Shown: in pieces, positions 3,710 to 57,290 of the stretch
Layout of the letters: each line of letters starts with the position of its first letter
How positions within the stretch are numbered: position 1 is the first letter of the stretch
Program-made: the position numbers and the translations under genes
The notes under the pieces: generated by a model
The model's database searches: none
Told to the model about the DNA's origin: nothing
What the model saw: only the letters and a program-made list of their open reading frames with translations
Origin: Isoetes taiwanensis
Lineage: Eukaryota; Streptophyta; Lycopodiopsida; Isoetales; Isoetaceae
DNA length: 64,000 nucleotides
Direction of reading: 5' to 3'
Assembly: GCA_021234155.1 (NCBI GenBank)
Contig: JAJEKV010000010.1
Coordinates: forward strand, 22,778,833-22,842,832

Positions 3710-5474
3710 ATGTCTAGCAGATTTGGTGCATCATTATTGAATACTGTGGATGTATACAAAGGAGGTCCAGGTTTCCAAGTCTGGAAAGACGCCATTGCAC
3801 ATATATTAGAAGTGGAGGACCTTTGGGAGCTGGTAGATCCAGCAGGAACAGTAGGTACAGGAGTACTTACAAGGACTGGTTCATCTAGTTCTGTTGTTGG
3901 AGCAGCAGGGAAGGCTGCAACAGGTACTGAAGCTTCAGGAGATGCAGGAGCAAGTGCTAAAGCATCTGGAGCTGGAGGAAAATCACTGCTGGCCAAAACA
4001 AGGGAAGCACAAGGCATTATAACATGCAAGGTCAGTCCAACTATACGTTTGAAATTAAGATCATTAAGTCCTAGAGAAATGTGGAAGTTTTTGCTTAAAC
4101 ACTATGAGGAAAAGACATCCTCACAAATTGACCTGCTTGAGAATGAATTAAGGGGTTTAAAACTTAAAGAGGAAGAGGATGTAACAGAATTCTTCAATAA
4201 GTTTGATAATCTTATTGCTGACCTAAATGGAGCAGGAGTTATCATTTCTGAAAGAAGTCAGATGTTGCAAATATCTAGGGCAATTGGTGAAAATGAGACA
4301 TTGGCCTTATTTATAAGAAACTCATGCAAATCAAGAGAAGAGGCAAAGAAATATATTAAGAACTGAGTGGGAGCAGAAGAAAATATTAAGGCAAAATCAA
4401 TCTGATGAAACTCCTGAAATTCTATTACTTAAGAGAAAAGATAAAGTGATATGTTATAATTGCCATGAGAAAGGTCATTACAAAAATGAATGCCCTAAAT
4501 TAAAAAGGGAATTCAACTGCTATACATGTGGTGGCAGAGGACATGTAGCTTCAAAATGTCCTACACCTAAAAATTATGGCAGATCTGCAAGAGGTAGAGG
4601 TGAAGCTAGACCTGCAAGAGGTGGCAGAGGACGTGGCACAGAAAAGGCCTATGTGGCTAGGGAACAAGAAGACAAGACAAATGAAGAAGATGAGGATGAG
4701 GTATCTCATGAATTTGCAATTGTTAATGAGAGTATGTCAACTAACATTTCTGATCATTTGATAGTTGATAGTGGAGCTGAAAGATCAATAGTACAAAACA
4801 TTGACCTTTTGAAGAATATAACCAATGCAAGTTCAAGGAAGATTCAAGTGGGAAATGGAGCTCTTCAAGAGGTTCAAGGAAAAGGGTTATTGCAGTTAAC
4901 AGATTTGGATGGAAATGTTATAAACATTCAGAATGTTTTATGTGTGCCTGGAATTATCAAAAACCTAATATCAGTTAGTCAGTTGTGTGATTTGGGATAT
5001 AAAGTTGTATTTGTTGCTGATCAGTGCAATATTATGATGAATAATGAAATAAAGTTTTATGGTAAACGTGTGGGAAACTTGTATGGATTGGAAAATACTA
5101 TTCATCATTCAATTAATGCAGTTCAGGAAATTGGCTTAGATACTTGGCATAATAGGCTTGCCCATACCAATTATAAAAAGTTAGAATGTCTACACAAGCA
5201 AGGTCATATAAGCTTGGAAAATGCAAACAGACAAGATCTCATATGTGAGGGGTGTGCTTTGGGTAAACTAAGCAGGTTGCCTTTTCATAAAAGGAAAACT
5301 AGAGCACAACAAAAGCTTGAGCTGATACATTCAGATTTATGTGGCCCCTTAAATGTCAAAAGCAGGACAAATAAGTACTTTATAACCTTCACAGATGATT
5401 ATAGCAGAATGTGTACCACATATTGTTTAATCAGGAAGTCACAAGCAATAAATGCATTCAAGCAGTTGCAGAAA
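3710..5474 (+). pseudogene. copia gag-protease-integrase N-terminus (internal B), broken
   Basis: The ATG at 3710 lies just after the primer site and begins MSSRFGASLLN, the same start as in copy C. Gag is a helical capsid-like region followed by two CCHC zinc knuckles (CYNCHEKGHYKNEC and CYTCGGRGHVASKC) at about 4452-4560 that bind element RNA. A basic RG-rich stretch follows. Aspartic protease follows at about 4760 (IVDSGAERS), then GAG-pre-integrase and the start of integrase. A premature TGA at about 4364, where copy C reads an arginine codon, separates capsid from the knuckles. The integrase is cut at 5474 by the DNA transposon. Confidence 0.9.
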
Positions 5475-5499
5475 AAGCAGAGTTTCATTAAAGTTGGAA
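5475..5499 (+). repeat. left terminal inverted repeat of the nested transposon
   Basis: A 25-bp perfect inverse of 16929-16953, starting AAGCAGAGTTTCATTAAAG. The target duplication GAAA lies at 5471-5474. Confidence 0.92.
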
Positions 5500-5654
5500 A
5501 TTTCGTGATTCCAATTTCTCATGAAATCAGTTTCTTCCCTGTTTTATCACACATTTATGGCTAGATATGGCACTATTTGCTTAAAAAGAAACCAGTTATC
5601 ATGCAAAAACCGCTACATTTAATATAAAACAGCGCGGTTTTAGTTGTCAGGAAG

Positions 5655-5992
5655 AGAAGTATGGCGCCATTTACTTGGAAAGTATGAGGAAAAGCGGCCC
5701 GAGAACCACAAAAGCAGTTATTGAATTGCCAAAAAGTGCCTAGCAAGCAAACAAAATGGCGCGGCCGCTCCTTTAACTTAGAAATAACCACAAAGCAAAT
5801 AGCGCAAAAGCCATTTTGCTTTTTAACGCGAAAGGAAGCAAATGGTGCGGTAGCGCTATTTGCTTGAACGTGGAAAAGCAAGCAAATAGTGCGGTAGCTA
5901 TTTACTTCAAGGTGTAGAACGAGCAAATAGTGCGGCTTATTTGCGTGAACGTGAAGACCAAGCAAATAGTGCTCTCGCGCCATTTTGCTATA
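5655..5992. repeat. palindromic repeat array 1 (GCAAATAGTGC type)
   Basis: Imperfect repeats of roughly 50-60 bp. Each carries inverted halves such as GCAAATAGTGCGGTAGC against CTATTTGC, or GCGCCATTT against AAATGGC. The surrounding bases 5500-5654 are AT-rich subterminal sequence without a recognisable gene. The motif is related to, but more diverged than, the arrays at 7644, 9370 and 11165 inside the same transposon. Confidence 0.65.
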
Positions 5993-6060
5993 GATAACAC
6001 ATATTTTTTCGTAAGGCCATGTAGATATATATAAATAGAAATATAAGATACAATTTTTCA

Positions 6061-9000
6061 AAATACAGATTTTTTTTTAATAATCATTGGCGAAGTGTTC
6101 ATCAGAATCATCCAGGTTAATTTTACTGCGGTCAATTTGATCCTGCTCTGCTCCACCTGTGCCCGACGTCTCACCTTTCTCTGGATGAGAAGCTTCTTCG
6201 TCTGCCCCCTTCTCCGAGATTCAACATCTTGCAAAGTCAAGACTTCCCGTTGGCGTTGGTCAATGGCCTTTGGGTCAAGCCGGGTACATGACGTTCTCGA
6301 CCCTACCGGTAATGCCCGCTCACGCATTTCATCTTTCCTAACTCATGCTCGTATGTCACACTGATTCTTCCTACATGAAGGGATGCCCTAGAGAAGGCTC
6401 CACCAGAGAAGAAATCTAGTACGATGTTACCTTGAGGGCAGAGCTTATCAACAAGGTAGAACGCAGTTGCAGGACCAATCTGTTTATGCACCAGATATTC
6501 TCCTTCCATACCCTGCCAACTCCACTTAAACCTGTCTTGCATGAGTTTTTTAGCCATAACATCGCCCTCACTTCCGATGGCTTCCTTAGGAATAGGAGGA
6601 ATTTAAGGGAGCTTTCTAGGATGGTCGCCAAATAGCACGAGGTCCGGTCTTCGCGGCTCTCTCTCCCTGCGTCGAAATCCTCGTAGCAAAATGTAAGAGC
6701 TTGTGGCTCTTTGATTCCTAAACCACCAGTAGCTCCAGTCTCTCTTCATAGATTCCTACAAACACTCTTGACCTGGATTCTAGTCTTTCAAGTGCACTGG
6801 CAAACAGTAAGTTATGCTCCGGCCTGACGAAACATAGAATCCAGTATGTCTCTACATCTGTCATCTTTGAGACATTATCGAAGAACGCGGTTACAGTCTC
6901 ACTTTTCCAAATTGGAGTAAGCTGCCTTGCATCTAAACATATCATGCTGGCAGGTAGAACTGCACGTTCGTTCGGAATCCCCCGGCGACATGCTCCACAA
7001 ACCATCTTGGCGGGTCCTTTTCTCGCTTTCAGTCAAGGATTTTTCGAATGGACCTGGACAAGGAGAATGGCATGTTACCATGAACTCCCTCTTTGAGTAT
7101 TCCTTCCTGCACCCACTTATGGTGGCATACCCCCCAAGCCAGAAGTGCTTTATCTGAGAAGTGGTCTGTGGCTTTCTGTAGGTCCTCGAATTTCTTGTAC
7201 TTAGTGCCAATTTGATCTGCAATGAAGTACAATATCTCCTTCTTCATGTAAGCAAGTACTCTTAAGTTCTGCGCCCTCGTCTTGAAGAAATTATCGCCTT
7301 TGTAATCTGAGGTGACTTTGACGTATATATCCCCGCTTAATGCTTCTTCGAGGACCTTTCTACAATCATCATAGTCCAAGCCCCTCATGCATCTAAGGTA
7401 GTTGTCACCGGTAATCTTTGTCTTTGGCAAAATTGATTACTATAGCTTGACCCCTCGTTATCCTTAAGTTCTCCCTTCCTCCATTTGTTCCACATCCGGG
7501 CTAAGAGTGCATAGACATCATCGGCATGAAGACAAACCGATTGACATCCTTCGTGTGTTTGCCCTCGTAATCTTGTCGCCATTTCAAGGTAGTGCTGCAA
7601 GAGAACTGGCGATTTTAGAATTCCAAATGTTGCTATTTACATCTAATGGCGCAGCTGCGCCATTTCAACTCAAAAGGCGCAGCTGCGCCATTTCAACTCA
7701 AATGGCGCAGCTGCGCCATTTCGATAAATGTATGGGTAAGGAGACGAACGCGTACCTTTGTACTTTCGTCACTTCTTGATCGTCCTTTACCGGCGGGGGG
7801 GCTGGTCTTCCGCATTCCCCGTGCATCGCTTTGCGAAGATGGTGGATCTGATCCACATATGGTTCCTTGAAGACAGTCTTTGCTACTATATCATTCACAT
7901 CCACACTCAGCTGAAGAAGGTCCAGGTCACTGATCTCTCCTGAAAGAACTCTGCATATTCTATAGACATAGATCTTGCCGAGCTCAAATTCTAGCATCCT
8001 CTCGTCCCCAACTTATCGCATTGGTGAGCGGAAAGCAAGAAATAATCAATGATTACCATTGATAATATAAAATCTTTTTCCGAATCGGATCATATTCCCC
8101 GCGTGACCCATTTCAAAGAACTCCTTTGTATCCGGGATCAAAGGGCACTACATCTCTTTGGAGTGAATACGGGATGTGGATCCTCGACAAATGATTTATG
8201 AGCCTCCTAACATGTTGAGGGTTAATAACCTGGCGGTCATGTTAGGTGGGGCCTCTTCTAGATCCCGGATAGATATTCTTACGGTGTATGTGACTCAAGG
8301 GGAACATATGGCCGTGCTTTTTGTATTTTCTTTAGAGTTTCCTCTCGCCATTTCTTCTTCTTCATCACGGTCCATCTTTAGTTCCTCGGGCACTTGAAGA
8401 TCCGCAATCTTACGTAATTTCACGGCCCTTATCGTACTTTGGTTTGGCTTTCTCTTTCTTTGGAGTGCTATCTCTAGCATGGATGCTACATTTCTTCGTG
8501 CTTTGTAGCCTCCTTATTGTCACTAATAGTGCGGTCACTATCGGCCGAGCTTCACATCGTGAGGCTTCTCAGTGGACTTCACGGGAGAATCATGTTTGTG
8601 AGCATCAGCCTCATCCATCTTCTCATCCTTATGGTCCTCCCCTTTCTCAACGTCTCGTCCTTCTTCTTGTTCTGTCTCCCTTTGTCACCTCCACTGGTTT
8701 TTGTTCCTTTGCCAGCTTTGGTGGCTTGTTTAGCTTTTACACATTTTCTCTGCATCTCTCCCAGAAGCCATCTGCTATCCATTACTGCTGGCATGTTGCC
8801 CGAGATCTTTGCTCTTACAATGTAGGACCGCGGAGTTTTTGGACATGTCCATTGCCGCCGCGAAATCACCGAATCCTTTGAGGATCTCTACCGTGCCTTT
8901 GATATCTGCTTGCTCTCTGGACTCATAAGATGGCAGCGGCCAACCTTTTTTCTTGGCCGACAGTGCTTGGTCCTTCATGCTGGACTCCATCATTGCAGGC

Positions 9001-9230
9001 TCGTAGAATGCCAATCCATGCAATAGAGATCAATGGTGCCGGTGGCCGAATCTTCCATCAGGCAACCAAGAAAGTCAAGCCTTCCTTGTTTCTTGACTTC
9101 CCTCATGTTGACAATGATGCCCATCTGGGCCACGGCTGAGGCTCCTTCTTCACTTGCACCTGATTTGACAAGGAGGCAAAGTTCTCGCCTCTTGTCTCCC
9201 TTGGTTGGGTCGCCTTGATCAAGGGTATGG
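6061..9230 (-). pseudogene. transposon-borne gene with methyltransferase-like C-terminus, multiply frameshifted
   Basis: Coding segments run right to left in changing frames. They are a Lys/Glu-rich N-terminal region (about 9100-8300), a segment with GKIYVYRICRVLSGEISDLD (about 7997), a segment around 7430-7030 with YKKFEDLQKATDHFSDKALL, a segment at 7005-6718, and the C-terminal segment 6557-6303. The last contains NIVLDFFSGGAFSRASLHVGR. That resembles the SAM-binding motif I (DxFxGxG...GR...E) that lies near the C-terminus of permuted (beta-class) N4/N6 adenine or cytosine methyltransferases, preceded by a HKQIGPATAFYLVDKL helix where such enzymes have KP..L. I could not see a clear catalytic DPPY/SPPW motif. 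A basic tail follows to about 6061. A palindrome array (7644-7722) interrupts it, perhaps in an intron. Being a coding remnant is fairly sure; methyltransferase kinship is moderate. Confidence 0.5.
7644..7722. repeat. three-unit perfect palindrome array
   Basis: Three copies, 32 bp apart, of a palindrome with core GGCGCAGCTGCGCC flanked by AAT/ATT bases and separated by CAACTC-containing spacers. The middle copy has an A-for-T change in the left flank. The units lie between coding fragments of the minus-strand gene. Confidence 0.9.
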
Positions 9231-9369
9231 CTCTAACGATCTCCATACACCAAGACCTTCCAAAGGAGGACTATGGTCCTCGATGTCACCACGTTCCATT
9301 TCTTGGCAAGACTAGCGCACGCATGGTAAGCATGGTGAGACAAATGGCCATGTGCTAGAAAGTTAATAC

Positions 9370-10080
9370 AAAGAAACGACATTTAGACTAAATGGCGTGG
9401 TCTTATTTAGACTAAATGGCGCACTTCTCATTTAGTCTAAATGGCGCACTGCTCATTTGTTCTATGTAAAGCTAAATGAAGCACTGGCCATTTGCTCTAT
9501 TATGTAAAAGCTAAATGGCACGAATTAAGCCATTTAGACTAAATGGCGCATTTCTTTAGCCATTTAGTCTAAATGGCGCACTCGCCATTTAGCTTTTTAC
9601 TAATAGAGCAAATGGCTAAAGTCTTTGCCATTTAGCTTTTACATAATAGAACAAATGGCGCAGTTGCGCCATTTAGACTAAATGGCAAAGATGGCGCGCT
9701 AGCCATTTGTTCTATTATGGGTCCCTTCGAAAAGCAAATGGCACAGATGCGCCATTTAGATTAAATGGCGCACCTGCGCCATTTCCTCTTCTATGGGTCC
9801 GCTTCTACAAGAACATGAACATAAATGCGCCATTTAGTCTAAATGGCGCACCTGCGCCATTTGTTCTATTATGGGTCCCTTCGAAAAGCAAATGGCACAG
9901 ATGCGCCATTTAGATTAAATGGCGCACTGCTCATTTGCTCTTCTATGGGTCCGCTTCTACAAGAACATGAACATACATTATGGAAATGGTGCACCAAGCC
10001 ATTTCATACAATCGAAAGAGAAAGGTCCGCTACAAGCCCACCCTTCATAATGAAATGGCTGGCCAAGCCATTTCGATTAC
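9370..10080. repeat. large palindrome array (AAATGGCGC / GCGCCATTT)
   Basis: Dense alternation of AAATGGC and GCCATTT halves, mostly spaced by TAGACTAAATGG-type or TGTTCTATTATGGG-type linkers. Examples are GCCATTTAGTCTAAATGGC (odd-length palindrome) and a repeated segment TCTATTATGGGTCCCTTCG near 9712 and 9867. No gene is supported here; short open frames are by-products of the repeat. 10081-10700 that follows is low-complexity, with GC-rich CCCGCCCGTCCG-like tracts and no gene seen. Confidence 0.88.
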
Positions 10081-10729
10081 CTAAGACACTACAAATCGAT
10101 AAGAATAGAAACAAAAGCTACTAACCCCGAGCCCGGCTCTGGATTTTGATCAAGATTGCGCCATTGTATAAAAGTATAAATGTACAGACCGTATAAATCC
10201 TACTCCACTTTTTTTTTTCGAAAGGCCCCTGGATCAACAAAGCGCTAGAGAGAGAAGATGCTTGAATAGGAGAGAGAGAGGTAAAAACTTAGGCTACTGG
10301 CGCCCGGGCGGAAGGCTAAGGAGGAGGGAGAAAAGAACAATGAAATTGAAAATAAAAATTGACTGGAAAGAAAAGAAAAGAAAAGTTTGGGAAAGAAAAA
10401 GTCGGGGAAAACCCGCCCTCCTGCTCTTCAAATTTGCGCCCCGTCCGCTTTAAAAATTTTAAAATTTCGATTTTTCCCGACCGCCAGTCCGTCTCTACAA
10501 ATTTTAAAAAATTTGAATTTTCCCGCCCGTCCGTTTCTCCCGCCCGTTCGCCATTATAAATTTTGAGTCATCCCGCCTGTACCCCCGGGCCCTACCGCAA
10601 ATTTGAAATTTGAATTTGCCCGCCCGTATAATGGGCGCCATTCATTGTCTGTGTGTCCGAGGTTCCTTAGTCGATAGCAAGAAGCCCCGGCTTGGCCGCT
10701 TGTCTTTCTTTTGCAGCCGCTTAGCCCTT

Positions 10730-10905
10730 GTCTTCATTCTTCTGGCGCGCTGCTTCGTTCTTAGGCGCTCGGCTTCATTCTTCAGGCGCTTGGCTTCATT
10801 CTAGTGGCGCTCGTCTTCATTTTTCAGGCGCTTGTCTAGATTCTCCAGGCGCTTGTCCAGACTTGTCCAGATTATTCAGGCGCTTGTCCAAATTCTTCAG
10901 GCGCA
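10730..10905 (+). repeat. minisatellite in transposase leader (GGCGCTTG...CATTCTTCA)
   Basis: About eight imperfect units of roughly 20-25 bp with the consensus TTCTTCAGGCGCTTG(G/T)C lie immediately upstream of the proposed transposase start at 10915. The position suggests a 5' leader or promoter-proximal tract. Confidence 0.7.
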
Positions 10906-10914
10906 TTCTCTGAT

Positions 10915-12421
10915 ATGGCAGATCCGGAAACGTCAATGACTTCCAGGTTAGTTGCTATTCAGTTCTAGTATGTTAAATGTTTTAGTATGTTTAATGTAGG
11001 ATGTAGGATGTTAAATGTTTTAATATGTTTAAGAGTAGATCTTCTCTATCTTGTTCAGTAGATAAGTTCTCAACAATTGATGTCTTGCTGAATCTTGTAG
11101 TAATAGGAATCCATAACTCTAGCTATTAGATATAGCATTTAGATTGAAGATGCCATTTACCTGTCAATGGGGCATTTTCCTTGAAATGGAGCAGCTGCGC
11201 CATTTTCCTTGAAATGGAGCAGCTGCGCCATTTTCCTTTAGATGGCGCAGGTGCGCCATTTAAAAGGAAATGGCGCAGCTGCTCCATTTCAAGGAAAATG
11301 GCGCAGCTGCTCCATTTCAAGGAAAATGGCGCAGCTGCTCCATTTCAATGAAAATGGCCCATTGATTGTAAATGGCGCACTCTTGCCATTTAAAGGTAAA
11401 TGGCCTGATCAAGGCCATTTCGTAAATGGAGCAGCTGCGCCATTTGTCTCATGTCGTATAATTTCTTTCGCATTTTCGCGCTATTTTTACTACGTATATG
11501 TCATCGAGGGTTGCATGTCCTTAACAAGTATATATATATGTGTATTGATTCTCACAGGAAAAGGCCCCTGCGTAACCTTGTCGATGGGGATGTGGTAGTT
11601 GCCAGGGGACATGAATTGCATAGAGGCCATCTGCATGGCAGGAACATTCCATGGAGCAATGTGGTCGTGGAGGTCACTGAAGCCATAGTGCCCACCCATG
11701 TGCTTCCCATTCCGTGTGAGGGAGCAGATAACATTGCTGAAGCCGTGGGGACATTCATCGAATGGCCTCGAAATCAAGTGAAGTACTGTGAAGGAGCCCC
11801 AACTATGTCATCAGAAACGTCTGATACTGATACCCCCAACTTGCCTAGTAGTACCTCCACAACATCATCAGACTTCGGTGTCGATTTGCCCGCCCCTACA
11901 AAACAATGGCGGCCTTGACAGAGAATATGGTGAACCTTGTCAGTAATAATACTGTGGTTGGTAAGGGTGTCTTGGTGAATAGAACTTGCATCCATGGGAA
12001 GAATGTTGACGCACACAACGTAGCAGTGCAAGTTACCGAGGCTGTGGTGCCTACACACATCCTTCCGATTCCATGTGATGGCGCTGACAACATTGAAGAG
12101 GCTGTGGGCACGTTTATCGAATGGCCTCGGCAGGATATAAGATATCATGCCATTGATTTAGCTACTCCATCACTGACCTCGAATGTAGAATCAGAGAGGC
12201 AAAGGTTAATGGGATCTGAAGAAATTGATCCTACAGTGGATCTACGTACACGTTTTCCTCGCAGGATAGCATCAGATGATGATGAACCACCACCTAGTTT
12301 CTCAAGAACCGATCTCTTGGATAAGCATTGCCACATTCTTCATGCATGTGACCGAAGTAAATATGCAGAGGCCATAATTGTCTTCAGTGATCCCCAGGAT
12401 GCTGTTGACGATGAATTTTAG
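10915..12421 (+). pseudogene. transposase gene, 5' part: exon 1 and two tandem DUF8039-like domains
   Basis: Proposed exon 1 is 10915-10946 (MADPETSMTS), ending at an AG|GTTAGT donor. A 611-bp intron ends at ATTCTCACAG (11557), and exon 2 continues in phase as KRPLRNLVDGDVVVARG. Two homologous domains follow, at about 11573-11793 and 11933-12153. Both show the pattern GK/GR..(N)V.V.VTEA.VPTH(V/I)LPIPC, then GADNI.EAVGTFIEWPR. This resembles the DUF8039 module found in plant transposon proteins (family recalled from memory). A Ser/Thr/Asp-rich linker separates them. The frame shifts once between the two domains near 11900 and a stop lies at 12419-12421. Splice sites are predicted by eye. Confidence 0.62.
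11165..11364. repeat. 200-bp foldback of palindromes inside transposase intron 1
   Basis: The left half (from CAATGGGGCATTTTCC) and right half (ending AAAATGGCCCATTG) are inverted copies. Each consists of tandem units with core GGAGCAGCTGCGCC or its inverse, and the centre is GGCGCAGGTGCGCC near 11253. The right half has one extra unit. Further AAATGG...CCATTT pairs continue to 11445. The RNA would fold into a long near-perfect hairpin. Confidence 0.88.
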
Positions 12422-12432
12422 GAGACTCAAAG

Positions 12433-13514
12433 GTGGGGCTCTGTGTGGGAAAGATCCTTCCTGCACTAATTACAGAGGATCTCAAATGTCATGCTTGTGC
12501 AGAAAGGCCAGCAGAAAATGCACTTGTACAATGGGAAAATAGCGATGTGATGCTGCAGGATGGAAGGACTGTCTCACAACATCTGCAAGCTCGAGAAGCT
12601 AAAGAAAATGAGGATATGGAAATAGAATCATTTGAGGACAACATTCAGGCTCAATTCAAACGAAAAAGGAAGTATACTTACACACATAGGATTCCAAGAC
12701 AGCCCAAGGGAAAGAGCAAAGAGGAAAGGCTATGCTCCACAACTTCAATCAATAAGTTCATGAAGTCTAGTCACTGCAAAAATACTTGCAACAAGAAACT
12801 TACCAAGCATCAAGTATGTGAATTAAGAAAAGAATTTTTATCTCAACCATACAATGCAAGGGTTACGTATTTTTTTGACGTGCTGAGTGTGACTTACACA
12901 GGAGAAGGAGAGGACAGGATAGTGCTCAAGGGGATGGAATTGTCATTTTGGTGGCGATGGCTTTAGGTATCAGTCAGTCAACATTTTACAATTGGAGAAA
13001 TAGATTTGAAGCAGGTGCAAAGATAGCTGAACATGGCAATACTGGCTCTAAGAAGCCTAGATCTTCTACACTGGCCACCGAATGTGTGCTAGACAGATTC
13101 ATTCAGGAGAATGCTGAAAGTATTCCCCATAGGAGCAAAAGAGGTAGAGATGATGTAAGAGAAAATGTACGAAGCTTCCTTCCATTCTTAATAAGAAGCT
13201 TATACATAAAGAAGTTGGTGCGATCGTTGAAGAGCTTACAGAACAACTCAGACTTGAACTCTTTCTATAGTATATGGAAAAGAGAATTTCCAGATGTTAG
13301 CATTGCAAAAAATACAGCCTTCTCTAAATGCAACATCTGCGTCGTAATTAAGCAGAAGCTGGAAAAAACAAAAGATACAAGAGAGAGACGAAATCTTGCA
13401 ATTCAACGTCGGTCTCATATGCTAGAGCAACGCCTCTTGCGTAAGTCAATATTGGCATTGGAGAGCATTGTCACAAATGGTCTCCTCGAAAAATCATCTA
13501 TGTATAATACATGA
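12433..13514 (+). pseudogene. transposase gene, middle part: Cys-rich segment and helix-turn-helix
   Basis: In frame from 12433: an acidic and basic linker, then a Cys/His segment HCKNTCNKKLTKHQVCELRK (about 12770-12835) like the zinc-binding entry of DUF7869-type transposases. After a frameshift near 12950 comes LGISQSTFYNWRNRFEAG, a homeodomain-like helix-turn-helix with the typical downstream HGNTGSKKPR. An FYSIWKREFPDVSIAK segment with a KCNICVV Cys pair follows at about 13260-13350. The HTH probably binds transposon ends. Frames differ between pieces, so the reading is broken. The assignment rests on motif order recalled from related plant proteins, not on a search. Confidence 0.6.
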
Positions 13515-15078
13515 TAAGATGGATCAGGTTAAGACTTTAGTGCCTAGAAGTCATCATCTAGCAAAATCAGATGGAGAGGTGATCGCTTGAAGAGCAGTTT
13601 GACAGGAGCTTTAACTCATGGGCATGGTGGTCGTGCATATGGTCATTTCTCACTTGATTTATGGAAAGATGATTCAAACTTCCACATTGGTTCACTTTCT
13701 AGAATATTGCATAACTTGGAATTGGTACAAGAGGACAAGATAGGTGACTTATGTGGAAGTAAGCCCCAGTTGCAAATGGATGCAAGCGGTCAAGGATACC
13801 AATCCTTTGAAGAACAAACTTGCTTCTATGGCGGTATTTGCCAAATGCTTCAACTACAACGAATCCTGAGGTGTTCAACCCTCTCCCCCGAAATCTCTAT
13901 TTGCAACTTGATAATGCATCAGGGCAAAACAAAAATAGGTATGTCTTTTCATACTTATCTTATTTGACTTGGCTTAAGGTCTTTGATGAGATCCAAGTGG
14001 GTTTTATGATGGTCGGCCACACCCATGATGATATTGATGCTTTATTTGGAAATTTTTCAACCTTGATGAGTTAAATCGGATGCTTTGACACTACCGAGCT
14101 ACTTTTACTTGTTTAGCAAATGCAATGCAAAATCCCCAATTCCATACTTTATTGATGAAGTTCCAAATTGGAAGGATTTTGTGAAGGGATTCATCCCCGA
14201 TAAGGGCCAACACCTGGTTGGGCATACTGAACCATTGCTCTTCAAATTTAAGATGGCAGGAGATTGGCCTGTTATGCAATACAAAATGCGCCCTACACAT
14301 AAAGAGTGGCTTCCAAACCAGATTCTCCAGGGAGTTAGAATGTGGAAAGAGGATGAACATGGTCAGCCAATGATACCAAGTGGTGTGCCACAAAATATTC
14401 CTCCTAGACCAACATTGAAAGATCTTCCAGGGTTGAAGGATAGCATCAACAAATACATCTCCCTATGGAAGGACATATGTAAGAATCAAGAAACTAGCTT
14501 GTTTGCAAGGCAATACACGACAAGTGTTGAGTATTGGAGCCAGCTTCTTATCTCTTTGGAGGATGTTGCTCGGGGCGCCCTCAAAATGATGCATTTTGGC
14601 CACAAACAAGACAAGTTCCTCTAGAACAAACAAAGATTTGTTCCGAGGTCGACGATATCTGCATTGGTCACACGACCTTTACCATCTTATTGTGGCCCGT
14701 CGGATGGCCGTCCCAAAGTTTGCCTCTTGAAGAGTTTGATCCTCACGCATACATGTGACAAAGGGTATGTTTGTTCTAGTCGGACACTGAGATGATAACA
14801 CTGCCACTTGGTTAGGATATGCAGAGGAGAATGCTGTTCTTGATCCAGAATCTACATATTTTGGACATATTTTTGTATCGTGGTGGAAGCCTACTGGAGG
14901 GGACTACAAAGACTGCTTGACTAAGCGTTGGCGGCCTAATCCTTCCGATCCTTCAAGGTACGAAAATTTAGATGCCATTCATTATGCTTGGGATGCCAAT
15001 GGCAAGAGGCCGAAAACAGTCCAAATTCTGAAATATATTGTAGACATGTGGAAAGACATAGCACATTGTTCATCTTAA
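13515..15078 (+). pseudogene. transposase gene, 3' part: DDE-like catalytic domain (DUF7869-like)
   Basis: The segment starts with HDKMDQVKTLVPRS. After frameshifts it continues as LTGALTHGHGGRAYGHFSLD, then LYLQLDNASGQNKNRYV (about 13899) and VGHTHDDIDALFG (about 14011). These match the D, D, and HTHDD signatures of a DDE-type transposase class carried by seedless plants, algae and animals. Candidate acidic residues are the Asp of HDKMD, the Asp of QLDN and the Asp pair of HDDID. A C-terminal region follows to 14624, then more frames to 14758. The end is FGHIFVSWWKPTGGDYKDC with stop at 15076-15078. At least four frame changes make it non-functional as read. Confidence 0.65.
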
Positions 15079-15272
15079 TACATGAGATCTTGTACTTGTA
15101 ATACATATCTTTCATCTTAATACATAACATTACTATATTTGTGATCATATATAACTGCTTACATCTTTAATATATAAATGCATACATGATTCATAGATAA
15201 GATGGTCGGTGCTTATATGTTGAACAGTGATTCAATCATCTTCGTGATTCAGTAGTAGTGATCCCCGATATC

Positions 15273-15476
15273 TCATAGCTCATGCGCGCCGAGAAGCCAT
15301 ATCAGATGGATCATAACACGAATTGACGCAGGGCAATGAATCTCAGCGCCCAAAGCTTTTCTTCGCAGGTAGGGATCAAGAAGAAGATGCCTATCTAGGC
15401 AACCAACAAGATCAGAGTGGCTCATTGAGCACTTGATCGCCTCGATGTGGTGAATAGAAGAAGGAAAATAATCCAT
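15273..15476 (-). CDS. micro-ORF 1 (67 aa), paralogue of the ORF at 15927-16091
   Basis: Unrecognised 67-residue peptide (MDYFPSSIHHIEAIKC...) read from the minus strand of the transposon. It aligns with the micro-ORF at 15927-16091 through a shared pattern: Met, Pro at position 5, I..(I/F)..C, S..DL..C, LDP.L..KA. Both start 36-37 bp downstream of a TATAAAA box inside a closely similar ~75-bp upstream block (15480-15555 and 16088-16163). No signal peptide or transmembrane segment is obvious. It may be an accessory product of the transposon or a decayed exon. Coding status is supported mainly by the paralogy. Confidence 0.4.
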   Translation of the reverse strand: MDYFPSSIHHIEAIKCSMSHSDLVGCLDRHLLLDPYLRRKALGAEIHCPASIRVMIHLIWLLGAHEL

Positions 15477-15511
15477 GGGAGACGAATGACCTCTAGCCCC
15501 GAATGGAGCTG

Positions 15512-15519
15512 TTTTTATA
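15512..15519 (-). promoter_or_regulatory. TATA box of micro-ORF 1
   Basis: TATAAAAA on the minus strand lies 36 bp upstream of the ATG. The surrounding block, from CCAATAATTCACATC to CAGCTCCATT, is repeated nearly unchanged upstream of micro-ORF 2. Confidence 0.5.
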
Positions 15520-15926
15520 GTGAAGTAAAATTATTGATGTGAATTATTGGGGTGGACTGTAGCGCCATCATTGAGCGTATACAAGTATCATGTACTCGTA
15601 CAGGTATGATTCTATCATGTACTCAGATTCTATACATCAACTAATATTCACTATGCTTATATTATATATATCCTTAACAGATACACAAATCATAAGTGCT
15701 TATATTATTATATCCTTAACAGGTATACATATCATAGATGATTCACTCGTCATTGCTGCTTGACTAATATAGGTGTGATTGAAAATAAAAGACAGCTTGC
15801 ATAGTTCATAGGTACTCATGTCATTATTATATCCTTAGCAGATACAGATTCACTCATCATCAACATCAAAGCACGTGATGCTATTCAGCTCAAAGATCTC
15901 CGATCGGAAGCCAATAAAGGTGGACC

Positions 15927-16091
15927 TTAACACGAGTGAGCTTCCCCGCAAGCACTCAGAGACCATCTCGCTTTGGACTGCAGCCATGGATCAAGTTTGA
16001 TACCATTTCTGTAGCATTCACACAGATCATTATAGCTAAGGTAGCACCTGAAGGATTGGATGTTCTCTGGACGATCAGGCAAGGAAGCCAT
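15927..16091 (-). CDS. micro-ORF 2 (54 aa), paralogue of micro-ORF 1
   Basis: The minus-strand ATG at 16091 opens a 54-residue peptide (MASLPDRPENIQSFRCYLSY...) with stop at 15927-15929. The upstream block with its TATA box is about 90 percent the same as that of micro-ORF 1, while the peptides are much more diverged. That is what one expects if a promoter-plus-ORF cassette was duplicated and the ORF then drifted or changed function. The product is not recognised. Both ORFs sit between the transposase 3' end and the right terminal repeats, where nothing else coding is seen. Confidence 0.38.
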   Translation of the reverse strand: MASLPDRPENIQSFRCYLSYNDLCECYRNGIKLDPWLQSKARWSLSACGEAHSC

Positions 16092-16127
16092 GGGAGATGA
16101 ATGAGCTCTACCACCGGATGGAGCTGC

Positions 16128-16134
16128 TTTTATA
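16128..16134 (-). promoter_or_regulatory. TATA box of micro-ORF 2
   Basis: TATAAAA on the minus strand lies 37 bp from the ATG, inside the duplicated upstream block. Confidence 0.5.
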
Positions 16135-16199
16135 GTGAAGTAAAATTATTGATGTGAATTATTGGTGTTCATTGCCTTTATACGAGTACCATACATGTA

Positions 16200-16900
16200 T
16201 ATGATCCAATAATTTCTATGTATATACTATCAATAATTTTGGTGAGTATATACCATCAATAATTTTGGTGGGTATACCATCAATAATTTTGGTGGGTATA
16301 AATATACATCAAATTGCCGAAAGTGCAAAGAACATTGGCCTCCGCCTAGCTATGACTTATTCTGGTCTTGAACGTGATTCTATCACTTGCAAGATGAATC
16401 ATGAGGACTTCAAGCGGTCATGAGCGAGATATACCGCTTGAAGACCGGCTCACCATCGTTGCTCTCAATCCTCGCCATTATCCCGATCCCGCCGATGTTA
16501 TCATCCATCTCCCGGAATAATAGGAGTATCAAATGTTCATGATTGAAAGGATCTCTCGAGCGCCTTCGCTAGTTTCCATCATTCGGAGTAATAGTAGAAG
16601 AATAATATTACTTGTTATCTTATTGTAATCTGGTTGTGTTAGTATACAACAGGTACACATAACCTTTTGTAATACACATAACCGTAATATAAGTAATAGT
16701 AAAATAATAGTACTTGTTATCTTATTGTAATCTGGTTGTACTCTTATTGTTATCTTATTGTAATCTTATTGTTATCAGGTATACATAACCTTTTGTAATA
16801 CACATAACCATAGTATGCAACAGGTATACATAACCTTTTGTAATACACATAACCATACTATAAGTATTGAGGTATACATAACCCTCCAAGGTATACTATA
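16200..16900. repeat. AT-rich right subterminal repeats
   Basis: Short direct repeats fill this stretch: ATCAATAATTTTGGTG(A/G)GTAT three times near 16228-16302, GTTATCTTATTGTAATCTGG near 16613 and 16715, and ACATAACCTTTTGTAATACA at about 16656, 16785 and 16828. Such subterminal arrays often bind transposase. A short plus-strand open stretch around 16420-16520 (DRLTIVALNPRHYPDPAD) has no recognised homology. Confidence 0.65.
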
Positions 16901-16928
16901 TAAAAATTATTCCAACTTGTCTTCAGAA

Positions 16929-16953
16929 TTCCAACTTTAATGAAACTCTGCTT
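16929..16953 (-). repeat. right terminal inverted repeat of the nested transposon
   Basis: Exact inverse of 5475-5499, ending CTCTGCTT. The target duplication GAAA follows at 16954-16957, and the copia integrase resumes immediately. Confidence 0.92.
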
Positions 16954-16957
16954 GAAA

Positions 16958-19365
16958 AGGAACGAGAAACAGGTGTCAAAGTGAAATGTATCAGATCAGA
17001 TAGAGGAGGAGAATACCTTTCAGGTCAATTCAAATCTTTTTGCATATCACATGGAATCAAAAGACAATTAACCTGCAGACACTCACCTCAGCAGAATGGA
17101 GTTTCAGAAAGAAAGAATAGAACCTTGGGTTGCCAAACTACCTATGGGAAGAAGCACTTTATACTGCTGTTGAAATTCAGAACATGCTGCCATCAGTAAG
17201 CCTACAAGGAAATATCCCTATGCAATTATGGAATCCAGGAAATAAGTTAAACTATGAAAAGTTTAAAGTATATGGATGTATGGTCTATGTACACGTGCCA
17301 TCTCAATTAAGGAAAAAGTTGGATAACAGGGCAGAAAAAGGTTTTTTGGTAGGATATGACAAAGAATCTAAAGGATACAGAGTCTACTTACCCGAGACCA
17401 AGGAAATCAGAATTAGTAGGGATGTATTATTTAATGAAGAAGTGTTGTACAAACATAAATTCAAGAAAGGCATCAAGTTTCAACCAGATAAACCTGAACA
17501 AATTCCCAAAGTGGAATTTGAAGAAGAAGATAATGAGGAACTAGAAATGCCAGAAATACCAAAGGAGGCAAATGAGCTGGAACAACCTATACCTGAAGAC
17601 CTTCCAGATCAAGAACAAGCAAGTGCTGAACCTACCAAGGAATATCAAGAAAAGAAGAAAAGAAAAACTCAGGCAGAAAGACTTGTTGAAGAAGCTAAAC
17701 TGGAAGATCAAGCTTATGGCAGAAATGAAAGGGGAAGAAGTAGAAGGATTGAAGCAAAGACAGTTGAACATGAATATATTATGGCAATATTAGAAGATGA
17801 GATAATTCCTCAAAGTTATGAGGATGTACAAGAAAGCATTGACAGAGATAAGTGGATAGCAGCTATGAATGATGAACTAAAATCGTTTGAAGACACTAAA
17901 ACATATGAACTTGTGAAATCAGATGATAAGCATAATATTATTGGCAGCAAATGGTTATTCAGAATTAAACTAAATCCAGATGGGACAAAGAAATATAAAG
18001 CTAGATTGGTGGCACAGGGTTATACTCAGAAAAAGGGAAGAGATTATGATGAAACATATTCTCCTCTGGTCAAATTGACAAGCATCAGAATATTGTTGGC
18101 CATGACAAATGCAATGAAATTGGAAATACATCACATGGATGTCAAGACAGCATTCTTAAATGCAACTCTGGAAGAAGAAGCATTTTTTAGGCAACCTCCA
18201 GGCTATGAACAAGGCAAGAACATGATCTGGAAATTAAATAAAGCAATGTATGGATTGAAGCAGTCACCAAGAGAATGGTATCTTTGCATAAATCAATTTT
18301 TGCAAGAACAAGGCTTTAACAAGCTACATAATGATGGTAATCTCTATAGACTAGAACAAAACAAGGATTACTGTATTATTGCCCTTTATGTAGATGACTG
18401 TATAATGATGGCAACCTCACTGAACGGTTTAAACAAATGCAAAGGCATTTTAAAGTCCAGGTTTCAAATGACAGACTTAGGAGAGCTAAGGAAATTTTTG
18501 GGGATTGAGGTGGACAGAAATAAGGAAGAAAAATGGCTCAAATTGCATCAAAACAAGCATATAGAAAATATGCTTAAAAGGTTCAACTTGGTTGAGGCCA
18601 AACCTGTTAAAATACCCATGATTCCAGGACATAGGTTGACTGACATTCAGCAAGTCACAGATGAGGATATTACAAAGATGGAGAATGTACCCTATCGAGC
18701 TTTGATTGGCTGTTTACTTTATTTAGCAAATAGCACTCGACCTGACATTGCTTATGCTGTAAATATTCTAAGTAGGAGAAACCATGATGCTACACAGGAA
18801 CATTGGGAGGCTGCAAAACGTGTACTGAAGTATTTGAAGAGCACACAAAACCAAGGAATATGTTATGATTCAGAAAATCTCACTATGTCATGCTTTAGTG
18901 ATGCAGATTGGGGAGGTGATCTCTCCACAAGAAGATCAACATCAGGATATGCTATTTTCTTTGGTGGTGGAGTGATTACTTGGAGGTGCAAGAAACAAAC
19001 ATCTATAGCCATGAGCTCTGTAGAAGCAGAGTATGCTGCATCCTCTCTTGTAGCTAAAGAAATTGTATGGTTGAGAAGGTTAATGGATGAACTATGTTGT
19101 GAACAAACAGGTCCCACAGTAATATGGACAGATAGCCAAAGTTGTATAGCCATAGTGAAAAACCATGTGCAACATGATAGAACCAAGCACATAGAGCTAA
19201 GTGGCAGAAAGAAAGTTAATTGAAATGCTCTACTTGGATACTAATCATCAAATTGCAGATATTTTTACCAAGGCTCTGCCTATAAACAAATTCAATGGAT
19301 TTAAAGCAAAGTTGAAGGTGTTGGAAAAACCAGACATGCAGTCTTATGAGTTGAAGGAGGAGTGA
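16958..19365 (+). pseudogene. copia pol 3' part (internal B)
   Basis: Continuation of the split integrase, then RT and RNase H. The catalytic Asp/Glu region SDRGGEYL is present. A 34-bp deletion near 17126, relative to A and C, shifts the frame inside integrase. From 17130 a 697-codon frame runs through the region absent from copy A (GNKLNYEKFKVYGCMVYVHV), the acidic linker, RT (YVDD at about 18390) and RNase H (SDADWGGD, SVEAEYA). The last 50 or so codons (LIEMLYLDTNHQIAD...KALPINKFNG) are in another frame after about 19200 and end at the TGA at 19363-19365, the first three LTR2 bases. Compared with copy A there are scattered substitutions such as K/Q at about 18850. Confidence 0.92.
19351..19362 (+). 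other. polypurine tract of internal B
   Basis: TTGAAGGAGGAG immediately before LTR2, identical to the tract at 2850. Confidence 0.75.
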
Positions 19366-20210: not shown

Positions 20211-23200
20211 ATGTCTAGCAGATTTGGTGCATCATTATTGAATACTGTGGATGTATACAAAGGAGGTCCAGGTTTCCAAGTCTGGAAAGACGCCATTGCA
20301 CATATATTAGAAGTGGAGGACCTTTGGGAGCTGGTAGATCCAGCAGGAACAGTAGGTACAGGAGTACTTACAAGGACTGGTTCATCTAGTTCTGTTGTTG
20401 GAGCAAGGGAGGAAGGCCGCAATGGGGACCAAGCTTCGGAGAGATGCAGGAGCAAGTGCTAAAGCATCCGGAGCTGGAGGAAAATCACTTTGCTGGCCAA
20501 AACAAGGGAAGCACAAGGCATTATAACATGCAAGGTCACCCAACTATACGTTTGAAATTAAGATCATTAAGTCCTAGAGAAATGTGGAAGTTTTTGCTTA
20601 AACACTATGAGGAAAAGACATCCTCACAAATTGACCTGCTTGAGAATGAATTAAGGGGTTTAAAACTTAAAGAGGAAGAGGATGTAACAGAATTCTTCAA
20701 TAAGTTTGATAATCTTGTTGCTGACCTAAATGGAGCAGGAGTTATCATTTCTGAAAGAAGTCAGATGTTGCAAATATCTAGGGCAATTGGTGAAAATGAG
20801 ACATTGGCCTTATTTATAAGAAACTCATGCAAATCAAGAGAAGAGGCAAAGAAATATATTAAGAACCGAGGGGAGCGTAAGAAAATATTAAGGCAAAATC
20901 AATCTGATGAAACTCCCGAAATTCTATTACTTAAGAGAAAAGATAAAGTGATATGTTATAATTGCCATGAGAAAGGTCATTACAAAAATGAATGCCCTAA
21001 ATTAAAAAGGCAATTCAACTGCTATACATGTGGTGGCAGAGGACATGTAGCTTCAAAATGTCCTACACCTAAAAATTATGGCAGATCTGCAAGAGGTAGA
21101 GGTGAAGCTAGACCTGCAAGAGGTGGCAGAGGGGCGTGTACGAAAAAAAGGCCTATGTGGCTAGGGAACAAGAAGACAAGACAAATGAAGAAGATGAGGA
21201 TGAGGTATCTCATGAATTTGCAATTGTTAATGAGAGTATGTCAACTAACATTTCTGATCATTTGATAGTTGATAGTGGAGCTGAAAGATCAATAGTACAA
21301 AACATTGACCTTTTGAAGAATATAACCAATGCAAGTTCAAGGAAGATTCAAGTGGGAAATGGAGCTCTTCAAGAGGTTCAAGGAAAAGGGTTATTGCAGT
21401 TAACAGATTTGGATGGAAATGTTATAAACATTCAGAATGTTTTATGTGTGCCTGGAATTATCAAAAACCTAATATCAGTTAGTCAGTTGTGTGATTTGGG
21501 ATATAAAGTTGTATTTGTTGCTGATCAGTGCAATATTATGATGAATAATGAAATAAAGTTTTATGGTAAACATGTGGGAAACTTGTATGGATTGGAAAAT
21601 ACTATTCATCATTCAATTAATGCAGTTCAGGAAATTGGCTTAGATACTTGGCATAATAGGCTTGCCCATACCAATTATAAAAAGTTAGAATGTCTACACA
21701 AGCAAGGTCATATAAGCTTGGAAAATGCAAACAGACAAGATCTCATATGTGAGGGGTGTGCTTTGGGTAAACTAAGCAGGTTGCCTTTTCATAAAAGGAA
21801 AACTAGAGCACAACAAAAGCTTGAGCTGATACATTTAGATTTATGTGGCCCCCTAAATGTCAAAAGCAGGACAAATAAGAGATACTTTATAACCTTCACA
21901 GATGATTATAGCAGAATGTGTACCACATATTGTTTAATCAGGAAGTCACAAGCAATAAATGCATTCAAGCAGTTGCAGAAAAGGAACGAGAAACAGGTGT
22001 CAAAGTGAAATGTATCAGATCAGATAGAGGAGGAGAATACCTTTCAGGTCAATTCAAATCTTTTTGCATATCACATGGAATCAAAAGACAATTAACCTGC
22101 AGACACTCACCTCAGCAGAATGGAGTTTCAGAAAGAAAGAATAGAACCTTATTGGATGCTGTTAGATCAATGTTAAAGGAAAGTGGGTTGCCAAACTACC
22201 TATGGGAAGAAGCACTTTATACTGCTGTTGAAATTCAGAACATGCTGCCATCAGTAAGCCTACAAGGAAATATCCCTATGCAATTATGGAATCCAGGAAA
22301 TAAGTTAAACTATGAAAAGTTTAAAGTATATGGATGTATGGTCTATGTACACGTGCCATCTCAATTAAGGAAAAAGTTGGATAACAGGGCAGAAAAAGGT
22401 TTTTTGGTAGGATATGACAAAGAATCTAAAGGATACAGAGTCTACTTACCCGAGACCAGGGAAATCAGAATTAGTAGGGATGTATTATTTAATGAAGAAG
22501 TGTTGTACAAACATAAATTCAAGAAAGGCATCAAGTTTCAACCAGATAAACCTGAACAAATTCCCAAAGTGGAATTTGAAGAAGAAGATAATGAGGAACT
22601 AGAAATGCCAGAAATACCAAAGGAGACAAATGAGCCGAACAACCTATACACCAAGACCTTCCAGATCAAGAACAAGCAAGCGCTGAACCTACCAAGGAAT
22701 ATCAAGAAAAGAAGAAAAGAAAAACTCAGGCAGAAAGACTTGTTGAAGAAGCTAAACTGGAAGATCAAGCTTATGGCAGAAATCAAAGGGAAAGAAGTAG
22801 AAGGATTGAAGCAAAGACAGTTGAACATGAATATATTATGGCAATATTAGAAGATGAGATAATTCCTCAAAGTTATGAGGATGTACAAGAAAGCATTGAC
22901 AGAGATAAGTGGATAGCAGCTATGAATGATGAACTAAAATCGTTTGAAGACACTAAAACATATGAACTCGTGAAATCAGATGATAAGCATAATATTATTG
23001 GCAGCAAATGGTTATTCAGAATTAAACTAAATCCAGATGGGACAAAGAAATATAAAGCTAGATTGGTGGCACAGGGTTATACTCAGAAAAAAGGGAAGAG
23101 ATTATGATGAAACATATTCTCCTCTGGTCAAATTGACAAGCATCAGAATATTGTTGGCCATGGCAAATGCAATGAAACTGGAAATACATCACATGGATGT

Positions 23201-43926: not shown

Positions 43927-44113
43927 AGAAAAAGAAAGAAGTTCTAATATGTAGCATATAATAACAGGGGGTTTTCTTTGTGTTTTTGTACGCTTTTCAC
44001 TAAGGTTTTCCTATGATTTCGTGATGTATTCAAATGGATATACTAATGCGTACATCTAGAGTGCACCATTTCTGAGCCATTGATTTTAGCCTTTTTTTTT
44101 CAATGGTCAACAA

Positions 44114-44367
44114 CCAATGGCTCACAACAAAAGCCCTTTTTTTGTGCGTGTGGTGCATAATGGTCAACAACCAATGGCTCACAACAAAAGCCCTCTTTTT
44201 GAGTGTGTGGTGCATAATGGGCACATGAAGGGCTTGAAAACCAATGGCTCACAACAAAAGCCCTTTTTTTGTGCGTGTGGTGCATAATGGTCAACAACCA
44301 ATGGCTCACAACAAAAGCCCTCTTTTTGTGTGTGTGGTGCATAATGGGCACATGAAGGGCTTGAAGG
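44114..44367. repeat. higher-order tandem repeat (57+70 bp dimer x 2)
   Basis: CCAATGGCTCACAACAAAAG begins units at 44114, 44171, 44241 and 44298. Units alternate 57 and 70 bp, giving a 127-bp dimer repeated twice. The long units end GGGCACATGAAGGGCTTGAA. Peptides read from it are repeat artefacts. 44368-45112 has no supported gene. Confidence 0.92.
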
Positions 44368-56860: not shown

Positions 56861-56935
56861 GGTCAGTTATCTAGAATAATGAATTATGTACTTGCATCAT
56901 GGATGGCAAGTAGGACGTCCGCAAAGAATGAGCTA

Positions 56936-57250
56936 CGAAACCATGGTCACAGGGTGACCCAGGGAATAGGTTTCTGAAGGGACTAGATGACGAAACCATG
57001 ATCACGGGGTGCCCCAGGGAATGGGTTTCCGAAGGGACTAGATGATGAAACCATATTCACAAAGTGACCCAAGGAAAGGGTTTCGAAAGGGACTAGATGA
57101 CGAAACCACGGTCACGGGGTGACCCAAGGAAAGGGTTTCGAAAGGGACTAGATGACGAAACCACAGTCACAGGGTGATTCAAGGAAAGGGTTTCGAAATG
57201 GACTAGATGACGAAACCATGGTTACAAGGTGACCCGAGGGATGGGTTTCA
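56936..57250 (+). repeat. 55-bp tandem repeat, about 5.7 copies
   Basis: Units beginning (C/T)GAAACCA and ending GGGACTAGATGA at 56936, 56991, 57046, 57101, 57156 and 57211 (last incomplete). They lie between the gypsy chromodomain and the polypurine tract, in the 3' untranslated part of the element. Confidence 0.95.
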
Positions 57251-57290
57251 AAACACATATACTCCAACAATCCTTGGGGACCAAGGATTT

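Follow-up and report, generated by a model that had tools for sequence, protein, structure and literature searches.

The 64,000-nucleotide stretch of the Isoetes taiwanensis genome analysed here (the window) contains a DNA transposon of ~11.5 kb at positions 5475–16953, bounded by terminal inverted repeats (TIRs), carrying two divergent genes and several palindrome arrays, and inserted in a Copia retrotransposon. The sequence AAGCAGAGTTTCATTAAAG is present at 5475–5493 on the plus strand and at 16935–16953 on the minus strand, the sole two window matches with up to three mismatches (chance expectation 0.01). Motif search and end comparison give a TIR of 25 bp (AAGCAGAGTTTCATTAAAGTTGGAA), identical at both ends, at 5475–5499 (plus strand) and 16929–16953 (minus strand). 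In the window self-comparison, Copia copies A (1–797) and C (about 21482–22281) are uninterrupted; positions 1–498 correspond to 4978–5475 with 99.8% identity, 494–666 to 16954–17126 with 99.4%, and 16954–17126 to 21978–22150 with 100%. The two empty sites, read from 494 and 21978, match each other over 46 bp. The two end matches and the agreeing empty sites bear out the original prediction, which had described an 11.5-kb TIR transposon with base-exact ends, 25-bp terminal repeats, and Copia copies A and C as its empty sites.

The element is flanked by the target site duplication (TSD) GAAA at 5471–5474 and 16954–16957, as read against the empty sites at 494–497 and 21978–21981. The duplication had been given as 4 bp or 5 bp. 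The shorter length stands and the longer one does not, because at the fifth base the flank merely happens to match the first A of the TIR (GAAAA) and because a perfect 4-bp TSD is present in all 21 copies read (20 elsewhere plus the window copy). The 20 were taken from 22 facing pairs hand-picked from the opening 100 entries of the list of exact TIR places, a sample that leans to intact ends and from which an 18.8-kb and a 34.0-kb pair were left out. In the whole assembly (1,658,258,908 bases in 1110 contigs, the basis of all genome counts below), the TIR is found at 713 sites (376 + 337) with up to two mismatches, compared with 18 (12 + 6) for the reversed motif, the control used for both TIR and palindrome counts. 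The checks proposed for the element, a genome search for its termini and a compilation of duplications, thus reveal a multi-copy family with a constant TSD length. Among the 21 copies, the first and second TSD bases are T and A in 13/21 each, and the third base outside the TSD on either side is C in 11/21 and G in 13/21, all computed without a control. The insertions lean towards CNNTWWRNNG, a preference symmetric around the TSD that fits the expectation for a dimeric transposase.

The right gene, on the plus strand, is the presumed transposase gene, with a helix-turn-helix (HTH) region, a DUF7869 domain, and a pattern of three aspartates (DDD). A possible first coding exon (ATG...CCAG followed by GTTAGT) is predicted at 10915–10946. 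The N-terminal domain, which appears twice in tandem in the window copy, spans 11550–12150 with approximate borders (open reading frames (ORFs) 11409–11918 and 11852–12421) and has no Pfam match among the window ORFs. By comparison with intact relatives, the transposase core spans 12822–14750, with the HTH near 12957–13020, and it carries the aspartate motifs D1 (HDKMDQ), D2 (LQLDNASGQNKN), and D3 (GHTHDDID). The stretch at 14791–15078, the C-terminal end of the gene, resembles the C-terminus of the open frames in L063 and L064. The DUF7869 match on window piece 13811–14074 reaches a Pfam E-value of 3.1e-26, and the window match to the transposase is interrupted by seven TGA, two TAG, and two TAA codons in addition to frameshifts. 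Because the window copy is broken in this way, the genes were read in sister copies. In the sister copy C145, a frame of 667 amino acids (P0001) matches DUF7869 with E 1.9e-40, and its HTH region falls under the Pfam cut-offs. Stop-free frames in two related families, C1066 and C913, are longer, at 1136 and 1073 amino acids. Residues D610/D613, D746, and D785/D788 (first-row numbering) are invariant across 10 aligned rows comprising the window family, the related C1066 and C913, and a distant lineage of DUF7869 proteins from the same assembly (24–26% identity). The aspartate motifs are also kept in L089, a relative on a contig outside the Isoetes assembly, although only 29% of 789 aligned positions are identical. 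If it acts as DDE/DDD transposases do, the protein would bind the 25-bp ends, excise the element, and join it to the target with a 4-bp stagger, leaning to the symmetric site described above.

The left gene lies on the opposite strand, and two main exons can be read in sister copies. The ParB-like exon (7797–9316, minus strand; sister-copy comparison and profile alignment) contains an INGNHS motif, and the methylase-like exon (6058–7636, minus strand) contains motif I (VLDFFSGGAFSRAS) and LDARQ at the position of motif IV. Both are broken in the window copy, the latter by frameshifts and stops. In sister copies, the INGNHS segment is carried by a 537-amino-acid frame (P0002) and VLDFFSGGAFTRAS by a 478-amino-acid frame (P0003). 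If both exons are joined, the putative gene model gives a protein of roughly 1000–1080 amino acids. It would be an accessory protein in which a ParB-like segment precedes a methylase-like segment that keeps the S-adenosylmethionine (AdoMet) site motif.

The ParB-like and methylase-like names are likely but weakly supported. When the left protein profile was compared with five ParB-domain proteins (L089 source record), INGNHSVSAAQ was aligned to the ParB box VAGERRYRAAK; two intended control comparisons gave P 0.38 and 0.40. Several results count against the names. The ParB-like profile alignment is weak (P 0.015, probability 3%), and Pfam detects no ParB domain in the left protein. The N6_N4_Mtase match stays below the cut-off (E 0.1 in the window copy, E 0.043 in a sister copy) and covers 2/12 members, compared with 7/12 for an equally sub-threshold match to M1E1E6-like, an unrelated integron cassette protein family (best E 0.011). 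Comparison of the methylase-like part with a methylase profile gave P 0.37, and PDB sequence and profile searches returned no supporting fold. A PDB match to M.RsrI (E 0.94) lies at the place of the methylase match, and the protein also weakly matches the Pfam family GLF (E 0.053, below cut-off). An apparent identity of P0003 as a PPR protein was rejected, since its E-value of 7.9e-08 to a repetitive PPR protein dropped to 0.047 with a profile.

The methylase-like part is unusual at its presumed catalytic site. In most readable copies, D[AT]R stands where the order along the chain would place the catalytic [DNS]PP[YFW] motif (DPPY). The form LDARQ is found in most readable copies of the two types A and B of the family, with the variants LHARQ (L081), LNARQ (L068), and LDAAK (L052), and DTRG is found instead in the more divergent L079, L098, L101, and L102. 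Motif I, the presumed AdoMet site, is largely kept in most readable copies, with small changes among SGG, SAG, SDG, and SCG. This conservation would suit a working methylase (N6-adenine or N4-cytosine) by which the element is marked, and the authors of an Ectocarpus study predict such activity for a relative (PMC12477816). The D[AT]R at the catalytic position in types A and B and in the four divergent copies argues the other way, and we regard an active methylase as improbable. The replacement of a methylase DPPY by D[AT]R was not found described in the literature searched, here and below limited to open-licence papers. A protein of the L089 source record (L093, 484–1815) has an N-terminal ParB match and, after it, a region resembling a methylase on visual inspection; it may be a prokaryotic parallel.

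The association of the two genes was assessed in best-hit lists (66 transposase places and 79 and 89 other places, after removal of secondary fragments), so that co-occurrence counts are lower bounds. A ParB-like match lies within 15 kb of at least 18/66 transposase places, on the opposite strand in 18/18, and a methylase-like match lies near at least 17/66, again always on the opposite strand. The two kinds of left-gene match (ParB-like and methylase-like) occur together at no fewer than 41/79 places, always on the same strand as each other. Among the best 150 DUF7869 matches from other lineages, by contrast, none is near a ParB-like match and one is near a methylase-like match. The contrast of 18/66 with 0/150 suggests that having both genes is a trait of the window element's lineage. 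A first look at the genome yielded 9,907 DUF7869 candidates, of which the best 150 were scored; many have long open frames (up to 987 amino acids) in lineages for which the lists show no ParB-like neighbour. This abundance apparently reflects a large expansion of DNA transposons. Transposable elements make up 37.08% of the assembly according to the genome paper (PMC8566536).

Both genes show signs of purifying selection. In the methylase-like exon, the ratio of nonsynonymous to synonymous divergence (dN/dS) of within-type pairs is 0.20–0.43; three pairs of the ParB-like exon give 0.21, 0.32, and 0.73, and four transposase pairs give 0.22–0.52. All frames compared were selected as open, a choice that biases these ratios downwards. 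When type A is compared with type B, or C1066 or C913 with the other transposases, dN is about 0.2 and dS is above 1.7 or saturated. The ParB-like exon of C1066 has a dN of 0.54–0.56 from the others.

The window copy itself is about 92% alike throughout to one copy (C1007), whereas against nine others its left pieces are about 70–75% and its right 4.7 kb about 84–93% alike. Since identity to type A copies shifts near 12217, within the transposase gene, the family is a mosaic. The left 326 bp (5475–5800) match some other copies at 100%, whereas the best match of the transposase region among 40 scored copies is 97%, with differences of 3–7%. Broken genes inside Copia copies that are ~99% alike, together with the perfectly matching left end, suggest that decayed copies with good ends are moved in trans, and the window copy is probably one of them. 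On the other hand, gene conversion among the Copia copies could mimic this signal. Window positions 1–23606 consist of tandem Copia copies about 99% alike, the middle one interrupted by the element, and long Copia frames flank the insertion (415 amino acids ending at 5564 and 700 amino acids at 17121–19223).

The palindrome arrays are built from a 22-bp unit, AAATGGCGC-N4-GCGCCATTT. With its centre left free, the palindrome has 2385 exact sites in the genome and none for the control; for the complete palindrome AAATGGCGCAGCTGCGCCATTT, allowing up to two mismatches gives 1487 sites, again with none for the reversed motif. In the window element, the half-site AAATGGCGC occurs 54 times with up to one mismatch, compared with 0–5 times in ten first-order random sequences, and the remaining 52.5 kb of the window holds 15, against about 11 expected by scaling the random sequences. 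Palindrome search and half-site counts place the main array at 9390–9992, between the divergent genes. Further arrays were located by palindrome search at 7644–7721, in a presumed intron of the left gene, and at 11184–11445, in a presumed 5′ intron of the transposase gene. The left subterminal zone (5570–5990) contains variant palindromes (GCAAATAGYGC...GCGCTATTTGC type). The right subterminal zone has short tandem repeats (GTATACATAACC / ACACATAACC) at 16655–16883, seen in the sequence and by self-comparison. Outside the element, tandem repeats with units of about 55–127 bp are present at 44102–44365 and 56935–57253. No Rfam family matches the element at gathering thresholds.

The palindrome tends to lie near parts or relatives of the element. 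Of the first 50 exact AAATGGCGCAGCTGCGCCATTT sites, 40 have a listed part of the element no more than 20 kb away (chance roughly 0.8%) and 10 do not. Five clusters from the start of the exact-site list (C9, C14, C17, C26, and C28) were fetched as 8.5-kb stretches, leaving out the C16 cluster, known to lie within a copy, and a lone site (C26:257367). Relatives of the element proteins are found within about 4 kb in 5/5 clusters (transposase in 4/5, ParB-like in 4/5, both in 3/5), and 0/4 control stretches of the window match the element proteins. The weakest cluster (L099) has only two partial transposase matches (E 3.7e-16 and 1.1e-9). In L098, L100, and L101, the array sits between both divergent genes, with the ParB-like gene opposite the transposase. 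The exact 12-bp TIR tip of the window family is absent from the five stretches, which may stop short of the element ends. The divergent genes and palindromic arrays of the original prediction are recovered in sister copies and in diverged relatives. Such arrays were not found described for elements of this kind in the literature searched.

These arrays, in the shared 5′ region, the presumed introns, and the left subterminal zone, would be cis sites for a protein of the element itself. That this protein is the transposase rather than the ParB-like protein, the arrays being its operator or binding sites, is a real possibility, although one held at less than even confidence. The subterminal arrays of Ac or En/Spm offer a parallel for transposase sites, and the variant array of the window element is likewise subterminal. 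In L089, where the transposase gene alone is visible, palindromes of a different sequence, TTTAGCTCGA-N-TCGAGCTAAA, flank it on both sides, with five copies (up to three mismatches), three upstream and two downstream; none was obtained in 200 shuffles, for a pattern picked post hoc. However, the densest arrays of the window element are internal, between the genes and in the presumed introns, and none is recognised in the right end zone. The five-cluster test favours neither protein, because the transposase and the ParB-like protein are equally frequent.

It has also to be considered that the arrays are passive, the product of tandem-repeat expansion or of hairpin formation without a protein partner, which seems rather unlikely. 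Some arrays have a regular 59- or 69-bp spacing, as from tandem duplication. Compensatory changes in the arms, a signal that had been hoped for, failed to appear in number (9/139 changed pairs, and 0/13 in C1066 and C913). In a scan for palindromes of any sequence, the elements exceed random sequences about 2- to 5-fold, but a Copia stretch of the window used as a control does so nearly 6-fold (8 compared with 0–4 in random sequences), and L070 and L071 do so about 2-fold. The generic scan therefore does not mark out the element, whereas the counts of the specific motif do. Against passive arrays, C1066 and C913, which were picked by their transposase, share the palindrome arms with the window family and differ in the centres despite near-saturated synonymous sites, and the coding zones hold just 3/54 of the half-sites in the window element (borders approximate).

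A more specific, and in our estimate unlikely, version of the cis-site reading is a self-recognition module of the ParB/parS kind. The ParB-like protein would bind the arrays and perhaps spread from them, and the methylase-like half would have turned into an AdoMet-binding domain with altered or lost catalysis. Under this reading, protein and palindrome would co-evolve by lineage, as may be illustrated by the TTTAGCTCGA-N-TCGAGCTAAA palindrome of L089, whose short contig shows no ParB-like gene. Possible functions of the module are to count the copies of the element, shield them from silencing, or pair them. A conserved, strongly enriched array next to the genes is a candidate binding site, which opens the self-binding idea to a binding assay.

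Kolobok and piggyBac elements duplicate TTAA and are ruled out by the variable TSDs of the window family, and EnSpm/CACTA elements, with their CACTA-type termini, are ruled out by termini of the form AAGCAG...CTGCTT. Ginger elements have 5′-TG...CA-3′ termini and a Gypsy-like integrase (PMC10741241); the termini exclude them, and a Pfam search of 20 window ORFs and three sister proteins gave no integrase match.

The Sola superfamily reportedly goes back to Bao et al. (2009). We consider it likely that the window element represents a Sola-type cut-and-paste family with two divergent genes, an accessory ParB-like/methylase-like protein, and palindrome arrays as cis sites. Sola elements have a 4-bp TSD, a DDD transposase, a length of 2–9 kb (some >15 kb), and TIRs of 11–1124 bp, and they are recorded in moss (PMC10741241), with a Physcomitrella Sola1 listed (PMC9033089). 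The window family shares the TSD length (21/21 copies), the DDD pattern, and a TIR, at 25 bp, within this variable range. A Sola type is most likely because the same arrangement has been published for the Ectocarpus element Sola1-1_Ec32. Besides the weak domain matches described above, other points weigh against this reading. Homology to Sola transposases is putative, the label being drawn from architecture, and 48/66 transposase places have no ParB-like neighbour among the matches listed.

A superfamily of its own, defined by DUF7869, would reduce the likeness to the shared 4-bp TSD and attribute the accessory gene to convergence or capture. DUF7869 is without mention in the literature searched, the termini (AAGCAGAG...) are unfamiliar, and the Sola label rests on architecture. 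Yet the 4-bp TSD, the DDD pattern, the size, and an opposite-strand accessory gene are all reported for Sola, and the presence of one unusual cargo at a matching location speaks for common descent. We therefore find a separate superfamily doubtful. The element is most likely a new family and not a new superfamily, as judged from architecture. Of the predicted "undescribed DNA transposon family", the family level is upheld and the suggestion of a new kind probably is not, since the Sola architecture, including the accessory cargo, has been published.

Among known systems, bacterial and phage ParB-methylase fusions and ParB/parS have a ParB part followed by a methylase, with palindromic sites nearby. 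The Isoetes system has the same order and palindromes near its genes, but it belongs to a eukaryotic transposon, and its sequence similarity is too weak for HMMER. Profile scans of viral contigs turned up no relative for any of the three alignments (transposase, methylase-like, and ParB-like), and tblastn found none in the two combinations run (P0003 against phages and P0001 against plasmids). A profile scan of genome contigs found one, L089 (1–4327), on a contig labelled as a Synechococcales metagenome-assembled genome. Its 963-amino-acid transposase frame and its palindrome habit suggest that this contig is possibly a mis-binned eukaryotic one, and no bacterial origin is claimed. A divergent two-gene layout in a lycophyte was not found described in the literature searched, and the word "Sola" is absent from the text of the I. 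taiwanensis genome paper (PMC8566536) and from the main text of the Isoetes sinensis paper.

The mosaic structure has a counterpart in the Sola2-Fanzor chimeras of amoebae, which also have a 4-bp TSD and for which a comparable part swap is described (PMC3627910): families resemble each other in one part but not in the other, as types A and B do here. The cargo there is Fanzor, whereas types A and B carry the same gene pair in left DNA that is about 70–75% alike.

The closest published system is Sola1-1_Ec32 of the brown alga Ectocarpus, a 21.5-kb element with a 1104-amino-acid ParB-like and methylase protein on the opposite strand (PMC12477816). Both elements are large, and in both the accessory gene lies opposite the transposase and is of similar size (1104 compared with roughly 1000–1080 amino acids in the putative gene model). 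They differ in length (21.5 compared with 11.5 kb), in the vascular-plant host of the present element, and in its degenerate methylase motif IV. ParB-methylase accessory genes are noted in transposons of brown, red, and green algae, with a suggested role in binding and marking their own element (PMC12477816). The main text of that paper contains no match to "palindrom", and the portion of it considered here names no binding site for the accessory protein. If the methylase is really dead in Isoetes, the accessory role would be binding and not marking, against the published suggestion (PMC12477816). The accessory gene is thus of a known, little-studied kind; what is new are the arrays of palindromes and the degenerate motif IV of the methylase-like part, in a vascular plant that carries the algal-type gene layout in many copies.

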